Assembly: GCA_020052615.1 (NCBI GenBank)
Contig: JAGVOT010000116.1
Location: 1-36,707, forward strand
From: Nitrospirota bacterium
GTDB lineage: Bacteria; Nitrospirota; UBA9217
Length of the DNA: 36,707 nt
Direction of reading: 5' to 3'
Position numbers and translations under genes: made by a program. Below, in pieces: positions 21,515 to 33,171 of the stretch (position 1 is the stretch's first letter; the number at the start of each line of letters is the position of its first letter). Below the pieces are notes generated by a model. The model made no database searches. It was not told the origin of the DNA and was given only the letters and a program-made list of their open reading frames with translations.

Positions 21515-22840
21515 TTACATGCCCTGCTTCAGTTTGATCTCGAACCGGAACTTCACCTTGTTGTCCACGCCCATGCGGGTATCCTGCACCGTGACCTCGG
21601 CAAAAAGCGGCGACTTCTGGAGCTCGGCTTTGATCTTGTCAACGGAATCGAAGGACGACACCTCTCCCTGGAGCCTCAATCGTTCTCCTTCCAGGATGAA
21701 CTCAGTGAAGCCGACCCGGACCTCCTTCGGGATGCCGTCGGTGACCGTCTTCATCACGTCCAGGGCCGAGCTTCCCGAGCCCAGCGCGCCAAAGAGTTTC
21801 TTTGACTCGCTGATCTTGTCGCGCATCTGACGCACGGGATCTGCTGCCGGCCTTCCTTCGGGAAAGGTCTGGCGGTAGATCTCCTTGATCTCGGCATCGA
21901 GCTTTCCATAGCCTGATTGGACAATGTAGAATTTCACAACGATATTCACGGTGAACAGAACGGCCGCAACAGCCCCGGCGATGATAAGAATGCGCCTTTT
22001 GCGGCGCGTGCCCTCGTCCGCCAGCTTGTATGCGAATTCGCCCTTGCGAAGGTTCACGCCGTCAAGGAGCGCGATGCCCAGGCTCGCCGGGTCCTGCGCC
22101 TTCTTTCCGTTGATCTCGGGAAGGATCAGATCGACGGCCACGCCGGCTTCGGTCAGGACAGCCCGGCTGACCTCATCGTCGATCAGCAGCGTTGCCTTCT
22201 CGACCTTTTCCTTGTGTTCGTTCTCGAACGCCTGAAGAACGTGGCGAAGGCCGCCGGTTGACTGACTGCCGGAAAAACTTCGGAGGCCTTTCAGGGCACC
22301 GTCATGGCGGAAACACATATCGGGACCGCAGAGCAGCAGAGAACCGGTATCCTTCGGCATCATATTCGCGACCGCAGAGAGCCCGGCATAGGACGGAACG
22401 ATCACTTGCGGATCGATCCCCGCGTCCGCAAGCAGGTCCAGATGCTGCCGCAGGACCGTCTTCGGCAGCATCATGCAGAGCACCTGGGTCGCCGTGTCCT
22501 TCTTCGCCGTCGCGCTCTCCAGCACCAGGTGGTCAAGCACGACGTCGTCGAGGTCGAAGGGCACGAGGTCCTCGACCTCGAAGGGCAGGGCCTTCTCGAT
22601 GCGCTTCCGGTCGGCAAAGGGAAGCGTGAGCGTCCGCTGGGTGAAGAAGTGGCCCGGAATGGACGAAACGATCTTCGCGCCCGCCCAGTCCTTCGACCGC
22701 TCCTTGAGGATGTCCACGAGCTCGGCATCGGTCGCAAAGGGCCGGCTGAACGAGTCCACCAGTTCCGTCCGGCGGAAGTCCTTCTGCACGACCGCCGCGG
22801 CAACAAGCCCTTTCTCTATTTTAAGACCGACGATCTTCAC
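21515..22840 (-). CDS. gspL: Type II secretion system protein GspL
   Basis: A 441-residue protein. The cytoplasmic part (1 to about 280) is the actin-like, PilM-related domain: MKIVGLKIEKGLVAAAVVQK, the ERSKDWAGAKIVSSIPG strand, and LPFEVEDLVPFDLDDVVLDH. A membrane helix follows (RRILIIAGAVAAVLFTVNIV). The periplasmic part contains a ferredoxin-like domain (GIPKEVRVGFTEFILEGERL). GspL links the ATPase GspE to the platform through its cytoplasmic domain and binds GspM. The start overlaps the gspK stop by four bases. Sequence conservation is modest, but architecture and position are clear. Confidence 0.87.
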   Translation of the reverse strand: MKIVGLKIEKGLVAAAVVQKDFRRTELVDSFSRPFATDAELVDILKERSKDWAGAKIVSSIPGHFFTQRTLTLPFADRKRIEKALPFEVEDLVPFDLDDVVLDHLVLESATAKKDTATQVLCMMLPKTVLRQHLDLLADAGIDPQVIVPSYAGLSAVANMMPKDTGSLLLCGPDMCFRHDGALKGLRSFSGSQSTGGLRHVLQAFENEHKEKVEKATLLIDDEVSRAVLTEAGVAVDLILPEINGKKAQDPASLGIALLDGVNLRKGEFAYKLADEGTRRKRRILIIAGAVAAVLFTVNIVVKFYIVQSGYGKLDAEIKEIYRQTFPEGRPAADPVRQMRDKISESKKLFGALGSGSSALDVMKTVTDGIPKEVRVGFTEFILEGERLRLQGEVSSFDSVDKIKAELQKSPLFAEVTVQDTRMGVDNKVKFRFEIKLKQGM

Positions 22841-23691
22841 AACGCTCTCCAGTAGGAGATGTCTTTCCCTTTGACAATGGCCTCGATCTGTTTCGTATAA
22901 TCGCCCACGGTAGCATAGGCGAATATCCTGTAATATTCCATTGATCTCGTCGTTAAAAGTCCTCTGGCTTGTGTGGTTCCAATGATCGACGATAATTTTC
23001 TGGTGCCAGTGCTCGCGAGATCAGCGTCGACATACGGCGTCGCCTGTCTTTCCGTTATGATACTTTTTATATCCAAGTCATTTATTATCCCAAGGCTTCG
23101 AAGGACATCGGCAGAGGCAGTGTTTATGTTGATCGTGACCCTGTTCTGGCTCACTAACGCCACGGTCAAGCTCTCATATATCTTATTATAATCCTCGTCG
23201 CTCATATACTGATGGAGGCCCGACAACAAGACAAGACTGCCGATATTGCTTTGCGGGTCATAGATCCTGTCAACGACGGTACTGTCGATGCCCTTGTTCT
23301 CAAAGAGCGTCCGCACGACCGTAAGTGTTTCCGTATTGTTTCGTATATCATTGATCCTGATCTTCCCCGATTCATCCTCCCATTTGACCCTGACCTCGGT
23401 ATCGCCGTCACTGATCAGCGGAACAACACCCCATTCGCCCTGGGGTATGATCTCTCGAATCGACTTACCATAGTTCATGAAGGCAAATATACCTGACCGG
23501 GCGAGAAAGTACGCGCGCTGGCTGTTGCGGTAATTGACAGCACTGTTCAGGCTGATCCGTGTCGCGTACGAGAACTCAAAGATGAGCGCGATCAAAAGCG
23601 CCGTGACCAAGAGCACTATCAGCAAAGCAACGCCGCGATCATTCCGTAGCATCGATAATCTTATCATTGTTTTTCGGACGTCACCCATCAT
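22837..23691 (-). CDS. gspK: Type II secretion system minor pseudopilin GspK
   Basis: A 284-residue protein starting at an ATG that overlaps the gspJ stop (TGATG); an upstream GTG and a downstream ATG are one codon away. The prepilin cut site is DRG|VALLIVLLV. Position +5 is not Glu, as is usual for GspK, which sits at the pseudopilus tip. SLNSAVNYRNSQRAYFLARS and TININTASADVLRSLGI are typical for the family; the latter is the helix-hairpin-helix-like part of its large head domain. It overlaps gspL by four bases. The leader is about 20 residues and has no repeat. Confidence 0.9.
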   Translation of the reverse strand: MMGDVRKTMIRLSMLRNDRGVALLIVLLVTALLIALIFEFSYATRISLNSAVNYRNSQRAYFLARSGIFAFMNYGKSIREIIPQGEWGVVPLISDGDTEVRVKWEDESGKIRINDIRNNTETLTVVRTLFENKGIDSTVVDRIYDPQSNIGSLVLLSGLHQYMSDEDYNKIYESLTVALVSQNRVTININTASADVLRSLGIINDLDIKSIITERQATPYVDADLASTGTRKLSSIIGTTQARGLLTTRSMEYYRIFAYATVGDYTKQIEAIVKGKDISYWRAL

Positions 23692-24440
23692 CACTGTCTA
23701 TTTCCGACATCCACCCTTGCAGTGTACAATTTACCAGTATCAAGAACGAGTGCTATTTCCACTGCCTTAGGCAGTCTCCCCACTGATTTGCTGTCCCACC
23801 CATCATCAGCCCATGTTGATCCGTTATCAGAATACGTAAATTGAAGGCTCTCCACCCGGTCCGTGATCTCGTACTCGACCCCTCCTTCAAGTGCCGGGCT
23901 GTCCTGGCTGAGCTCTCGCTTTTCCCTCCGGTAGAGAATGAATCCCTTCCCATCCGGTTGCTCCTTGAAAAAGTAGCCCACTTCCCAGAGTTCCGTCTCC
24001 TTGGAATCGGGTTTGCGCCAGTTCGTCAGAGTGGTAAGGTTGATGCTGTCATGCCTGATCTTCTCGTTCCCCGGCCCCGACCCGAACTCCGCCTCTTCCT
24101 TTTTGCCGTAAAATATCGTTAGTATCTTTGGTGAATTCATGCTGGAATTCATATACGCATTGGCTATGTCAACCGAAAGCCGGGCGATCAGCGTGCGCGC
24201 GAGATCGGTCTCATCCCGGATCGTCTCTGCCTGTTCAACGTTCTTTCCCGCCGTGGAAAAGCTCGCATAGACCACGGTCATGATCAGGGAAAGGATCGCC
24301 ATGGCAAGGAGTACTTCGAGGAGGGTAAAACCCCTCGATTGCGGATTGCGGATTGCGGATTGCGGAGTTAAACCAATATCTGTTGACTTTGGTCCAAAAT
24401 CCGAAATCCGAAATCCGAAATCCGCAATGGCTCTATTCAT
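23691..24440 (-). CDS. gspJ: Type II secretion system minor pseudopilin GspJ with repeat-encoded leader
   Basis: A 249-residue protein. The cut site and N-helix are RG|FTLLEVLLAMAILSLIM, with Glu at +5. The start ATG at 24440 overlaps the gspI stop by eight bases (ATGAATAG), which strongly supports translation from there. The leader is then 37 residues, far longer than the usual 5-10, and is made of DNA repeats: AIADFGFRISDFG and PQSAIRNPQS come from 7-base tandem units. The head domain (WRKPDSKETELWEVGYFFKE and YRREKRELSQDSPALEGG) fits GspJ. With GspI and GspK it forms the tip of the pseudopilus. The prepilin peptidase is not in this window. Confidence 0.88.
   Translation of the reverse strand: MNRAIADFGFRISDFGPKSTDIGLTPQSAIRNPQSRGFTLLEVLLAMAILSLIMTVVYASFSTAGKNVEQAETIRDETDLARTLIARLSVDIANAYMNSSMNSPKILTIFYGKKEEAEFGSGPGNEKIRHDSINLTTLTNWRKPDSKETELWEVGYFFKEQPDGKGFILYRREKRELSQDSPALEGGVEYEITDRVESLQFTYSDNGSTWADDGWDSKSVGRLPKAVEIALVLDTGKLYTARVDVGNRQ
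24337..24428. repeat. Inverted arms of 7-base tandem repeats inside the gspJ leader
   Basis: The left arm (24337-24365) is GATTGCG repeated four times. The right arm (24398-24428) is AATCCGA-type units ending in TCCGCAAT, in the opposite orientation. The 32-base spacer between them is unrelated. Both arms are translated as part of GspJ. Confidence 0.85.
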
Positions 24441-24882
24441 AGCTCTTCAACTCCACCATCTCCTGCCGTTCGCCTTCCTTCCAGAGCACCGCCACCCGCA
24501 CTTCAGTGATCGTTACATTTTCCACCGGCTGCAGCTGGGAGATCGATTCCTTCCACGTATAGTCCTTGAACTCTTCCTCCGGGAACTCGCCTTCATCCTC
24601 TTTCTGAAAGACGGTTCGGGTACCCACGGTCACCAGGTTTTCGTTCATTTTGCGCGTTGCCAGCAGCGTCGCGGTCGTGATGTGGTCCGCAAGCATCACA
24701 TCCTGCATGCTCCTGTTCTTCAATCCGATCAGCGACACCAGAACCATGCCCAGGATGGCCACCGCGACCATGACTTCGAGAAGGGTGAAGGCTTTCGATT
24801 GCGGATTTCGGATTGCGGGTTTCGGATTTAAATCCGCTTTACGCAATTCGCAATTCGCAATCCGCAATCCGCAATTGGTCAT
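24433..24882 (-). CDS. gspI: Type II secretion system minor pseudopilin GspI with repeat-encoded leader
   Basis: A 149-residue protein. ATG at 24882 overlaps the gspH stop (AGATGACC) and follows a GGAGGAGAG ribosome site. The cut site and helix are SKA|FTLLEVMVAVAILGMVL, with Ala instead of Gly at -1 and Glu at +5. The leader is about 31 residues and includes CGLRIANCEL and KPAIRNPQS, both encoded by the 7-base repeats. The head (VTVGTRTVFQKEDEGEFPEE, ENVTITEVRVAVLWKEGERQ) fits GspI. An Ala at -1 is tolerated by prepilin peptidases in some pilins but is unusual. GspI nucleates the GspI-J-K tip complex. Confidence 0.88.
   Translation of the reverse strand: MTNCGLRIANCELRKADLNPKPAIRNPQSKAFTLLEVMVAVAILGMVLVSLIGLKNRSMQDVMLADHITTATLLATRKMNENLVTVGTRTVFQKEDEGEFPEEEFKDYTWKESISQLQPVENVTITEVRVAVLWKEGERQEMVELKSYE
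24797..24877. repeat. Inverted arms of 7-base tandem repeats inside the gspI leader
   Basis: The left arm (24797-24829) consists of GATTGCG/GATTTCG units. The right arm (about 24841-24877) consists of CGCAATT/CGCAATC units in the opposite orientation, with about 12 bases between. Both arms lie within the coding sequence after the gspI ATG. Confidence 0.85.
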
Positions 24883-25448
24883 CTCTCCTCCACATAACCT
24901 TCGCGGAGCTCGGTATTCGCGGTGAGCGGCTTCACGAGCAGGGAAAAATCGCGGTCGCTGCCGTCGCGGAGATGGATGATTGCATGCTCCACCCATCCGT
25001 CGGGCGTGAACAGGATATAGGGATCATCCGGGTGACTGCCGGCCTGAATATCGCGAAACGTGGTCTGGCCAAAAAGACTTCCTTCCCCCCCGATGACCGA
25101 CGTCGTCTTTTGGAACTCTCCCGTACTTTCCGAAAGCTGCGAAAATGTTTCAGCCCAGTAGCGGCCGTCCTGGATATCGAACCTGAGACGATATTCTGTC
25201 TTCTTCGCCTGGGACTCCTCATGGAGGAAACGGATCATGCCCGTGAGGTGCCTGGCGCTCCGCTTCAAATTGGCTTCGCCGAGCTCGCCGAGCATCGGGG
25301 CGACAAGGGCGATCATGACCCCGAGGATCGCAATGACGACCGCGAGTTCGATAAGGGTAAAGCCTTTCGATTGCGAATTGCGAATTGCGGATTGCGGAAT
25401 ATGAATCCGTTCTCTCAAGGCTCCTGTTTTACCTTTCGCACTTCGCAC
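24879..25448 (-). CDS. gspH: Type II secretion system minor pseudopilin GspH with repeat-encoded leader
   Basis: About 189 residues if the GTG at 25448 is used; a TTG ten codons later, behind AGGAG, is the other candidate. No ATG lies between the gspG stop and the cut site. The cut site and helix are SKG|FTLIELAVVIAILGVMI, with Glu at +5. The leader contains IPQSAIRNSQS, encoded by the same repeats as in gspI and gspJ. The head domain (LKRSARHLTGMIRFLHEESQ and EYRLRFDIQDGRYWAETFSQ) is typical of GspH/FimT. It lies 20 bases after gspG and overlaps gspI by four bases. The start codon is uncertain. Confidence 0.85.
   Translation of the reverse strand: MRSAKGKTGALRERIHIPQSAIRNSQSKGFTLIELAVVIAILGVMIALVAPMLGELGEANLKRSARHLTGMIRFLHEESQAKKTEYRLRFDIQDGRYWAETFSQLSESTGEFQKTTSVIGGEGSLFGQTTFRDIQAGSHPDDPYILFTPDGWVEHAIIHLRDGSDRDFSLLVKPLTANTELREGYVEER
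25369..25399. repeat. 7-base tandem repeat arm in the gspH leader
   Basis: GATTGCGAATTGCGAATTGC and onward, about four units, in left-arm orientation. Its opposite-orientation partner may be the arm at 26026-26058, which would make the two flank gspG. The gspH start region just before it (25430-25458) also carries the simple repeat GTGACGAGTGCGAAGTGCG on the minus strand. Confidence 0.8.
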
Positions 25449-25468
25449 TCGTCACTCCGTACTTGAGC

Positions 25469-25903
25469 CTATTCCATCTTCCAGCTTTCGATGTCGGCGT
25501 TATTCCCTTCGCCGCCCGGCTCGTTGTCCGCGCCGTAGGAGAGGATCTCGTATTCCCGCCCCTCACTGCCGGGAGCAAAATAGACGAATTCCTTGCCCCA
25601 GGGGTCCTTGGGAATGCGCGCCGGCTTGAGGTAGCCGCCTTCGCGCCATTTATTCGGGACGCGGCCGGCTTCGGGCTTTATGATGAGCGCATCAAGCCCC
25701 TGGTCAGTGGCCGGATAAAATCCGTTATCGAGCTTGAAGGCGTCCAGCGCGCTCTCGAGCGACCGGATCTGCACCTTTGCGGCCTCGAACTTCGCCTTTT
25801 CTTCCTGCCCCAGGATCCTGGGCAATACCAGGCCGGCGAGCAGGCCGAGAATGATGACCACGACCATGATCTCGATGAGGGTGAAGCCTTTCTGGTTTTT
25901 CAT
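25469..25903 (-). CDS. gspG: Type II secretion system major pseudopilin GspG
   Basis: A 144-residue protein with an ideal start: AAGGAGG followed seven bases later by ATG at 25903. The leader is short and normal (MKNQKG|FTLIEIMVVVIILG) with Glu at +5. The rest (GQEEKAKFEAAKVQIRSLES, LDNGFYPATDQGLDALI, PKDPWGKEFVYFAPG and YEILSYGADNEPGGEGNNAD) is highly characteristic of the major pseudopilin, including the calcium-binding C-terminal loop. It polymerises into the pseudopilus that pushes substrates through GspD. The length is normal. It is the only pseudopilin of G-J without a repeat-encoded leader. Confidence 0.96.
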   Translation of the reverse strand: MKNQKGFTLIEIMVVVIILGLLAGLVLPRILGQEEKAKFEAAKVQIRSLESALDAFKLDNGFYPATDQGLDALIIKPEAGRVPNKWREGGYLKPARIPKDPWGKEFVYFAPGSEGREYEILSYGADNEPGGEGNNADIESWKME

Positions 25904-25927: not shown

Positions 25928-26058
25928 TAACCACAGATGTACACGGGCGGAACCACGTTCGTAGGGGCGGCCCTGCGTGGCCGCCCGCATGAGGGCAACC
26001 ACATAGGGTTGCCCCTACAAGTTTTCAATCCGCAATCCGAAATCCGCAATTCGCAATC
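25928..26058. repeat. Composite repeat block in the gspF-gspG gap
   Basis: Three families are stacked. First a single arm starting AACCACAGATGTACACGG (25929-25946), related to the ends of the 21056-21498 unit. Second an inverted repeat GTAGGGGC (25961-25968) / GCCCCTAC (26011-26018) with GGGCAACCACATAGGGTTGC inside. Third a right-arm copy of the 7-base family (CAATCCGCAATCCGAAATCC, 26026-26058). No coding potential is seen. Confidence 0.75.
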
Positions 26059-33078: not shown

Positions 33079-33171
33079 AGCCACTTCGGCGGCCCCTCTA
33101 TCCAACGGTGATCTGCTGGACAGGTAGCTCTGCGTCACCCGATTACTCGGGTTTTGCCCTTATCGGCGGCT
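33079..33171 (-). ncRNA. GEMM-I-like cyclic-dinucleotide riboswitch aptamer
   Basis: Minus strand: GATAAGGGCAAAACCCGA begins the aptamer, the stem ACCCGA/TCGGGT is capped by a GNRA-type loop GTAA, then TGACGCAGAGC follows. These match the GEMM-I conserved GGGCAAA, GNRA loop and GACGCAAAGC (one base differs). A second helix CTGTCC/GGATAG and a closing helix AGCCGC/GTGGCT complete the fold. Members bind c-di-GMP or cGAMP; the ligand is not decided here. A terminator follows directly and the target is the rhodanese gene. Confidence 0.7.

Follow-up and report, generated by a model that had tools for sequence, protein, structure and literature searches.

Heptameric, G-rich intergenic repeats with the units GGGAATC and GGGGAYT were described in Xanthomonas and Nostoc by Rehm et al. 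(2015; PMC4692102), who cite a 2007 survey of heptamer over-representation. According to the accessible portion of that paper, these repeats are mostly intergenic and lie near the ends of open reading frames, on the coding strand after stop codons and on the non-coding strand before start codons, and inverted arrays are paired at 70 and 75 places in two Xanthomonas genomes. Paired inverted tandem arrays of octa- and heptanucleotides were reported for Geobacter metallireducens (Aklujkar et al. 2009; PMC2700814), and TAACTGA heptamer repeats for marine Beggiatoaceae (MacGregor 2015; PMC4679880). Prepilin leaders have been characterised, in the part of the review available to us, as hydrophilic, variable in length, cytoplasmic and ended by Gly or Ala before the peptidase cut (PMC10191384).

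The arrays described here, which occupy pseudopilin leaders of a Nitrospirota bacterium, resemble the Rehm repeats in their period of seven, as determined by a lag test, and in their inverted pairing; the Rehm repeats differ in their units, were analysed for G-quadruplexes and, in the text accessible, are not reported from pilin leaders (PMC4692102). The Geobacter arrays are likewise inverted pairs of short arrays at variable distance, accompanied by a further heptanucleotide family between and within genes, but their units are different, they were read as putative regulator sites or RNA elements, and the accessible text draws no link to pilins (PMC2700814). The TAACTGA repeats likewise form numerous short heptamer arrays close to gene starts and have a wide, patchy taxonomic spread, but consist of one fixed unit that mainly ends just before start codons (PMC4679880, accessible portion); since every forward frame of TAACTGA contains stops, this unit cannot give rise to a leader when read in that direction. 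Rickettsia palindromic elements are small palindromic repeats that genes tolerate as in-frame, translated inserts, but according to the passages available they measure 105-146 bp, are not heptamer arrays, and occur in varied proteins without being described in cleaved leaders (PMC2229807). The long leaders of type IVb pilins and of S. sanguinis PilE are cut by prepilin peptidase, hydrophilic and variable in length, but are not described as made from DNA repeats in the portions of these papers that we could consult (PMC10191384, PMC6497953). In a literature search that covered few subscription journals, prepilin leaders were not found as a systematic landing site for repeats, and a text search for the repeat sequences or their peptides found none.

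Heptamer arrays in the gspH, gspI and gspJ leaders

The window that we analysed is one whole contig (C43; 36,707 nucleotides) of a genome of 3.99 Mb in 135 contigs. It carries a T2SS operon on the minus strand in the order gspF, gspG, gspH, gspI, gspJ, gspK, with gspF named from its position in the operon. The major pseudopilin gene gspG (25469..25903) starts at the ATG at 25903 and has a clean six-residue leader, MKNQKG. The probable GTG start of gspH (24879..25448) is at 25448, about 20 nt past the gspG stop, with GGAG 6 nt upstream. As originally predicted, the next two genes start within the stop region of their upstream neighbours: the ATG of gspI (24433..24882) at 24882, preceded by GGAGGAG, overlaps the gspH stop by ATGA, and that of gspJ (23691..24440) at 24440 overlaps the gspI stop by 8 nt. 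No array was found in our repeat searches at the start of gspK (22837..23694), the next gene of the operon. GspG exceeds curated cut-offs, the PF07963 prepilin-type N-terminal motif is above the Pfam cut-off in GspH, GspI and GspJ, and GspJ also exceeds the Pfam T2SSJ cut-off. The best matches to the NCBIfam equivalogs stayed below their cut-offs for gspH (45.5/80), gspI (34.9/44.35) and gspJ (26.3/64.85), and the names GspH and GspI are taken from gene order after gspG together with these sub-cut-off matches.

Heptamer repeats had been predicted directly ahead of the G/A cut site in gspH, gspI and gspJ, and this was confirmed: in each of the three gaps a lag of seven scored best, and 0 of 200 shuffles matched it. 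The tandem period was adopted in place of counts of single GATTGCG words, which were dropped because they gave no signal (13 in the window versus 8.9 expected, with at least 13 in 10 of 100 shuffles). On the coding (minus) strand the arrays read CGCAATC or CGAAATC and yield (S)AIRN(P/S)QS, followed by K/R-G/A^FTL. The claim of QSAIRN(S/P)QS in all three genes held for the repeat-encoded AIRN(P/S)QS but not for gspI as a whole, which reads KPAIRNPQS. The leaders are long, as claimed, with exact lengths of 29 (gspH), 31 (gspI) and 37 residues (gspJ) in place of the approximate range of 30-37.

Each of the three leaders consists mostly of one two-armed element, a G-rich array, a loop and a C-rich array, that begins just past the upstream stop codon. 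The repeats of the original prediction are the right arms only (all on the minus strand; 25369..25398 in gspH, 24797..24828 in gspI and 24337..24366 in gspJ, where the arm is C-rich on the coding strand), and these end one to three residues ahead of the G/A^F cut site, in gspJ one residue. The left arms, which had been missed, are inverted and G-rich in gspI and gspJ and begin at most 10 nt from the upstream stop. That of gspI (24842..24876, minus strand) starts 2 nt past the gspH stop; that of gspJ (24393..24428, minus strand), with GGATTTC and GGATTGC on the coding strand, starts no more than 10 nt from the gspI stop. The left arm situated between the stop of gspG and gspH is built from another heptamer of the GAGTGCG type (25437..25457, minus strand; boundaries by eye) and contains the probable GTG start. 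The arrays are short (3-5 units) and imperfect, and by eye the loops of the elements seen differ from one another and GATTGCG shows no GGG stretch.

A single heptamer array (26026..26058, minus strand) lies ahead of the ribosome-binding site of gspG, 3 nt past the preceding open frame. Separate from the arrays, a GTAG...CTAC palindrome also lies upstream of gspG (25961-26018, minus strand), with a predicted RNA hairpin of -46.8 kcal/mol (z -5.8); a sequence like it adjoins an array in another locus (L028). This palindrome may resemble GTAG-tagged REPs.

Distribution of the repeats in this genome, its family and other phyla

The heptamers of the window gave 39 overlapping pattern matches on 18 contigs of the genome, and the reversed control pattern gave 0. 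When the matches were grouped into arms (n=27), 17 of the 27 were located at -2 to 15 nt past the stop codon of a same-strand frame of at least 90 codons, a rule satisfied by 591 of 12600 random positions in the same sequences; the other 10 arms include the three right arms of the gsp leaders. The gsp arrays are members of a genome-wide, intergenic class of two-armed repeats sited right after stop codons, a class that had escaped the original prediction.

Several other loci were observed in this survey. A 402-residue gene with a MoCF_biosynth (MoeA-like) domain (L012:1321-2529, contig C42) contains two separate in-frame heptamer elements. The ATG of an exonuclease VII large subunit gene (L009 near 1500, C33) stands directly behind a heptamer array, and no ribosome-binding site was seen at that start. 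A prepilin-like gene (L046, about 1405-1500, C54) has a leader built from CGCACTY, and one in a congener (G001:C53:24923) has a leader built from AATTTGC; their N-termini are similar (RGFTYIALLAAIVIIG and RGFTYVALLTAIVIIG, respectively), with orthology judged by eye. With an E-value of 0.0148, L046 was above the cut-off for the set of 137 prepilin genes considered below.

The GspI core was searched for in 41 genomes (this one and 40 relatives), and a match was obtained in 19. Arrays occupy the same place in all three leaders of two congeners, where they are alignable and decayed. Other family members have other units there, namely AGTGCGG...CGCACTT (G004), GGAATGA...CGTCCCT (G011) and AGGGGCC...CTCGTCT (G010), and one (G003) has a different palindromic repeat at the same leader position. 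Near-empty junctions were also encountered, with gspJ gaps of 10 nt in three genomes (G040, G032 and G007) and 19 nt in a fourth (G012); in gspI the gap is 4 nt in G024, G015 and G032. Orthologous pseudopilin leaders of about 29-63 residues are made from unrelated repeat-derived sequence, with peptides as unlike as QSAIRNPQS, SHFALRTSHS, SSLVPRRS and LPLGERIKVRG, and in some other genomes the leaders are only 6-9 residues long. The gspG leader had no array in the family genomes seen. In one relative (G008; L099, L178), the gspI and gspJ leaders are near-identical, loop included, as though one leader were a copy of the other. In G003 (L093) and G015 (L103) we also noted other intergenic palindromes, CCTCTCCC...GGGAGAGG and one of the GGAATCC...GGATTCC type, between an upstream stop and a prepilin core.

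Among 137 prepilin-type PF07963 matches, 30 carried an array of period 7 within the open segment at the N-terminus (12 family genomes), although these 30 segments come from 15 contigs, mostly gsp operons, and do not amount to 137 independent trials; at the control lags, 6 and 8 to 11 gave 0 and lag 5 gave 2. Two of the 30 are doubtful in that they lie upstream of gspG's own ATG (G013 C332 and G003 C105 6898), and in one (G001 C22) translation might start past the array. All doubtful cases are avoided by a strict set of 20 of the 137 genes, in which the array ends at most 15 nt from the F codon. In four of these genomes, arrays were present in 14 of 61 prepilins versus 0 of 80 response regulators (Fisher p 3e-6), the latter selected by frame length from the listed matches; the control open segments were shorter (median 21 nt versus 81 nt) and were unmatched for overlapping starts. 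Within 210 nt upstream, 2 of the 80 response regulators had arrays. Tight packing alone could account for part of the prepilin enrichment. An earlier count over 63 prepilin regions with a crude ORF caller (19 prepilin leader, 9 and 17 "other", 12 intergenic) was discarded, as many of the frames were antisense.

A pattern scan of one genome per species (84,980 species) for the prepilin motif with an array of two units ahead of it returned 41 sites in 36 stretches from nine phylum-level groups: Planctomycetota, Verrucomicrobiota, Nitrospirota, Acidobacteriota, Omnitrophota, Hydrogenedentes, Desulfobacteraceae, Nitrospinota and a Gammaproteobacterium. By our estimate, random DNA would give about 0.4 sites. 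Five of the 41 are from the bacterium's own family (L064, L066, L074 and two in L081, as judged from identical leaders). The carriers are labelled as MAGs except the strain Botrimarina colliarenosi Pla108, an isolate whose genome has one site (L087), and two Hainich bins. Pfam was run on six of the 41 proteins; five matched N_methyl (two below the cut-off, one also matching GspG) and the sixth T2SSJ. A GspG of Planctomycetota (L054) does carry a leader array. With the arrays of the congeners, the 20 of 137 prepilin genes in 12 genomes and these 41 sites, the repeats extend beyond one operon or one assembly.

Near-cut arrays were C-rich in 18 of 19 cases and far arrays G-rich in 20 of 21. A C-strand array beside the motif was found in 28 of 36 genomes and a G-strand array in 0 of 36, with 24 of the 36 picked for having a site and two pairs apparently representing the same genome. 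Together with the after-stop position of the 17 arms, this is polarity of the Rehm type. Given the polarity and inverted pairs in the accessible account of Rehm et al. (PMC4692102) and the pairs in that of Aklujkar et al. (PMC2700814), the repeat class is already known in kind.

Reading frame and leader evolution

Across 18 genomes, the F codon of gspJ lay 7 to 181 nt past the gspI stop. This gap equals 1 modulo 3 in 16 of the 18 and in 11 of 11 within the family, the two exceptions (G020 and G039) belonging to other families of the phylum. In 14 of the 18, gspJ is served by a predicted ATG that overlaps the gspI stop by 8 nt. The insert in gspJ varies about tenfold in length with its frame kept. 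At the cross-phylum sites the frame stayed open across the array in all 41, and no ATG or GTG was present between array and cut, with TTG in 4.

Because of these frame statistics, mis-calling of the predicted start is disfavoured for gspJ. Translation beginning past the arrays through faulty gene calling, or mis-assembly of the arrays, is in our judgement extremely improbable. Start codons are indeed predicted ones and nearly all of the sequences are metagenome bins, but such an artefact would leave unexplained the lack of ATG or GTG behind the arrays, the fixed phase of the gspJ gap, the homologous arrays of the congeners and the site in the Botrimarina isolate. The repeats were originally placed inside the genes, and the gspJ frame and the 41 sites bear this out.

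Between this genome (G000) and a congener (G001), pN/pS was 0.96 for the gspH, gspI and gspJ leaders together versus 0.19 for their cores. In gspI alone, the leader (L090/L091) had 0 synonymous changes in 19 sites, and 36.8 of 82 synonymous sites differed in the core (45%). As judged from these substitutions, leader sequence appears to evolve neutrally, with the gspI leader of this pair of genomes as an exception.

The last 30 residues are net positive in 19 of 20 strict leaders, the exception being gspJ of G010 at -2. C-rich units such as CGCAATC and CGCACTT give RNPQSAI and RTSHFAL, which are basic, polar and stop-free in every frame, and for this reason C-rich heptamers would suit leaders. 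We expect these leaders to be disordered and to undergo cleavage.

Weighing the explanations

We consider it probable that the arrays are heptamer repeats of gene junctions that land in cleaved, tolerant prepilin leaders, which would make the leader a tolerated site and not a sorting signal. Intergenic repeats of period seven would build up at gene junctions, the G-rich strand leading out of the upstream stop and the C-rich strand into the downstream gene; they may arise and spread by slippage, copying or a mobile process. Since the junction of overlapping genes sits behind a start codon, as with the ATGA of the pseudopilins, a repeat right after the stop would fall behind the next start and be translated. 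Most proteins would presumably be intolerant of such an insert. Prepilins would tolerate it because the leader is cytoplasmic, need only be polar and basic with G/A at -1, and is later removed by prepilin peptidase, so that selection would maintain the frame and not the sequence. Position, polarity, the translated frame of gspJ, neutral leader evolution and recurrence were demonstrated at the level of sequence comparison; that tolerance follows from cleavage we infer. The suggestion in the original prediction that leaders are a tolerated landing place owing to their removal is supported by the kept frame, the pN/pS of 0.96 and the recurrence. Some points run counter to a tolerated landing site: the conservation of the gspI leader between G000 and G001 is not predicted by neutrality, the two internal arrays of the MoeA-like gene indicate that arrays also enter an uncleaved protein, and the control segments were shorter while prepilins of one operon are not independent.

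A regulatory function of the arms was weighed against this. They might fold in the mRNA at the G/H, H/I and I/J junctions, lower the minor pseudopilins relative to GspG and be kept for stoichiometry. Predicted hairpins are strong in gspI (-37.4 kcal/mol, z -5.7) and gspJ (-48.7 kcal/mol, z -6.9) of this genome, in gspH and gspJ of G001 and in gspI and gspJ of G004, and the array-free gspG leader of the family would fit. But the gspH fold is weak here (z -1.45), the gspI and gspJ gaps of G008 fold worse than shuffles (z +2.2 and +1.9), and the gspJ fold of G002 has a z of only -1.0, with the frame kept nonetheless as it is in G008 gspJ; the gspJ junctions of G012 and G007 are near-empty, and the GspG of Planctomycetota has an array. 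Because hairpins are weak in gspH and absent in G008 gspI and gspJ and in G002 gspJ, an RNA role would, on these predicted folds, not be general, and we regard the stoichiometric reading as rather unlikely. The similar peptide in the three genes, the net positive charge of 19 of 20 strict leaders and the conserved gspI leader of the congeners would fit a targeting or sorting function gained by the leaders of the three minor pseudopilins; the unlike peptides of orthologues, the pN/pS near 1 and the 6-9 residue leaders of other genomes make it highly improbable. The original prediction had left room for an acquired role in sorting or translation, and this did not find support, the peptides of relatives being unlike, pN/pS near 1 and the hairpins of several orthologues missing or degraded.

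Contingency loci such as Haemophilus HMW1A are known to contain heptanucleotide tracts. Slippage by one seven-base unit would shift the frame, 7 not being a multiple of 3, and arrays just behind start codons could in this way switch a minor pseudopilin off. Such phase variation seems very unlikely for arrays of 3-5 imperfect units, with no off-phase gspJ among the 11 family genomes, all in frame, and with all 41 cross-phylum sites open.

Should the arrays be tolerated repeats in cleaved leaders, they would provide a natural experiment on the tolerance limits of targeting and of prepilin peptidase, suggest that constraint is confined to the few residues just ahead of the cut, account for odd N-termini that hamper the annotation of pilin start sites in uncultured phyla, and indicate where repeats are able to invade coding DNA. 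A broader version, which we think rather unlikely, would make prepilin leaders a general cross-phylum sink for intergenic repeats, with everything before the last one to five residues dispensable, and would have the hairpin behind the start recruited in some lineages to set the ratio of minor to major pseudopilins.

Elsewhere in the window, the minus strand carries a c-di-GMP-I riboswitch at 33085-33168, and four tRNA genes lie at 147-688.
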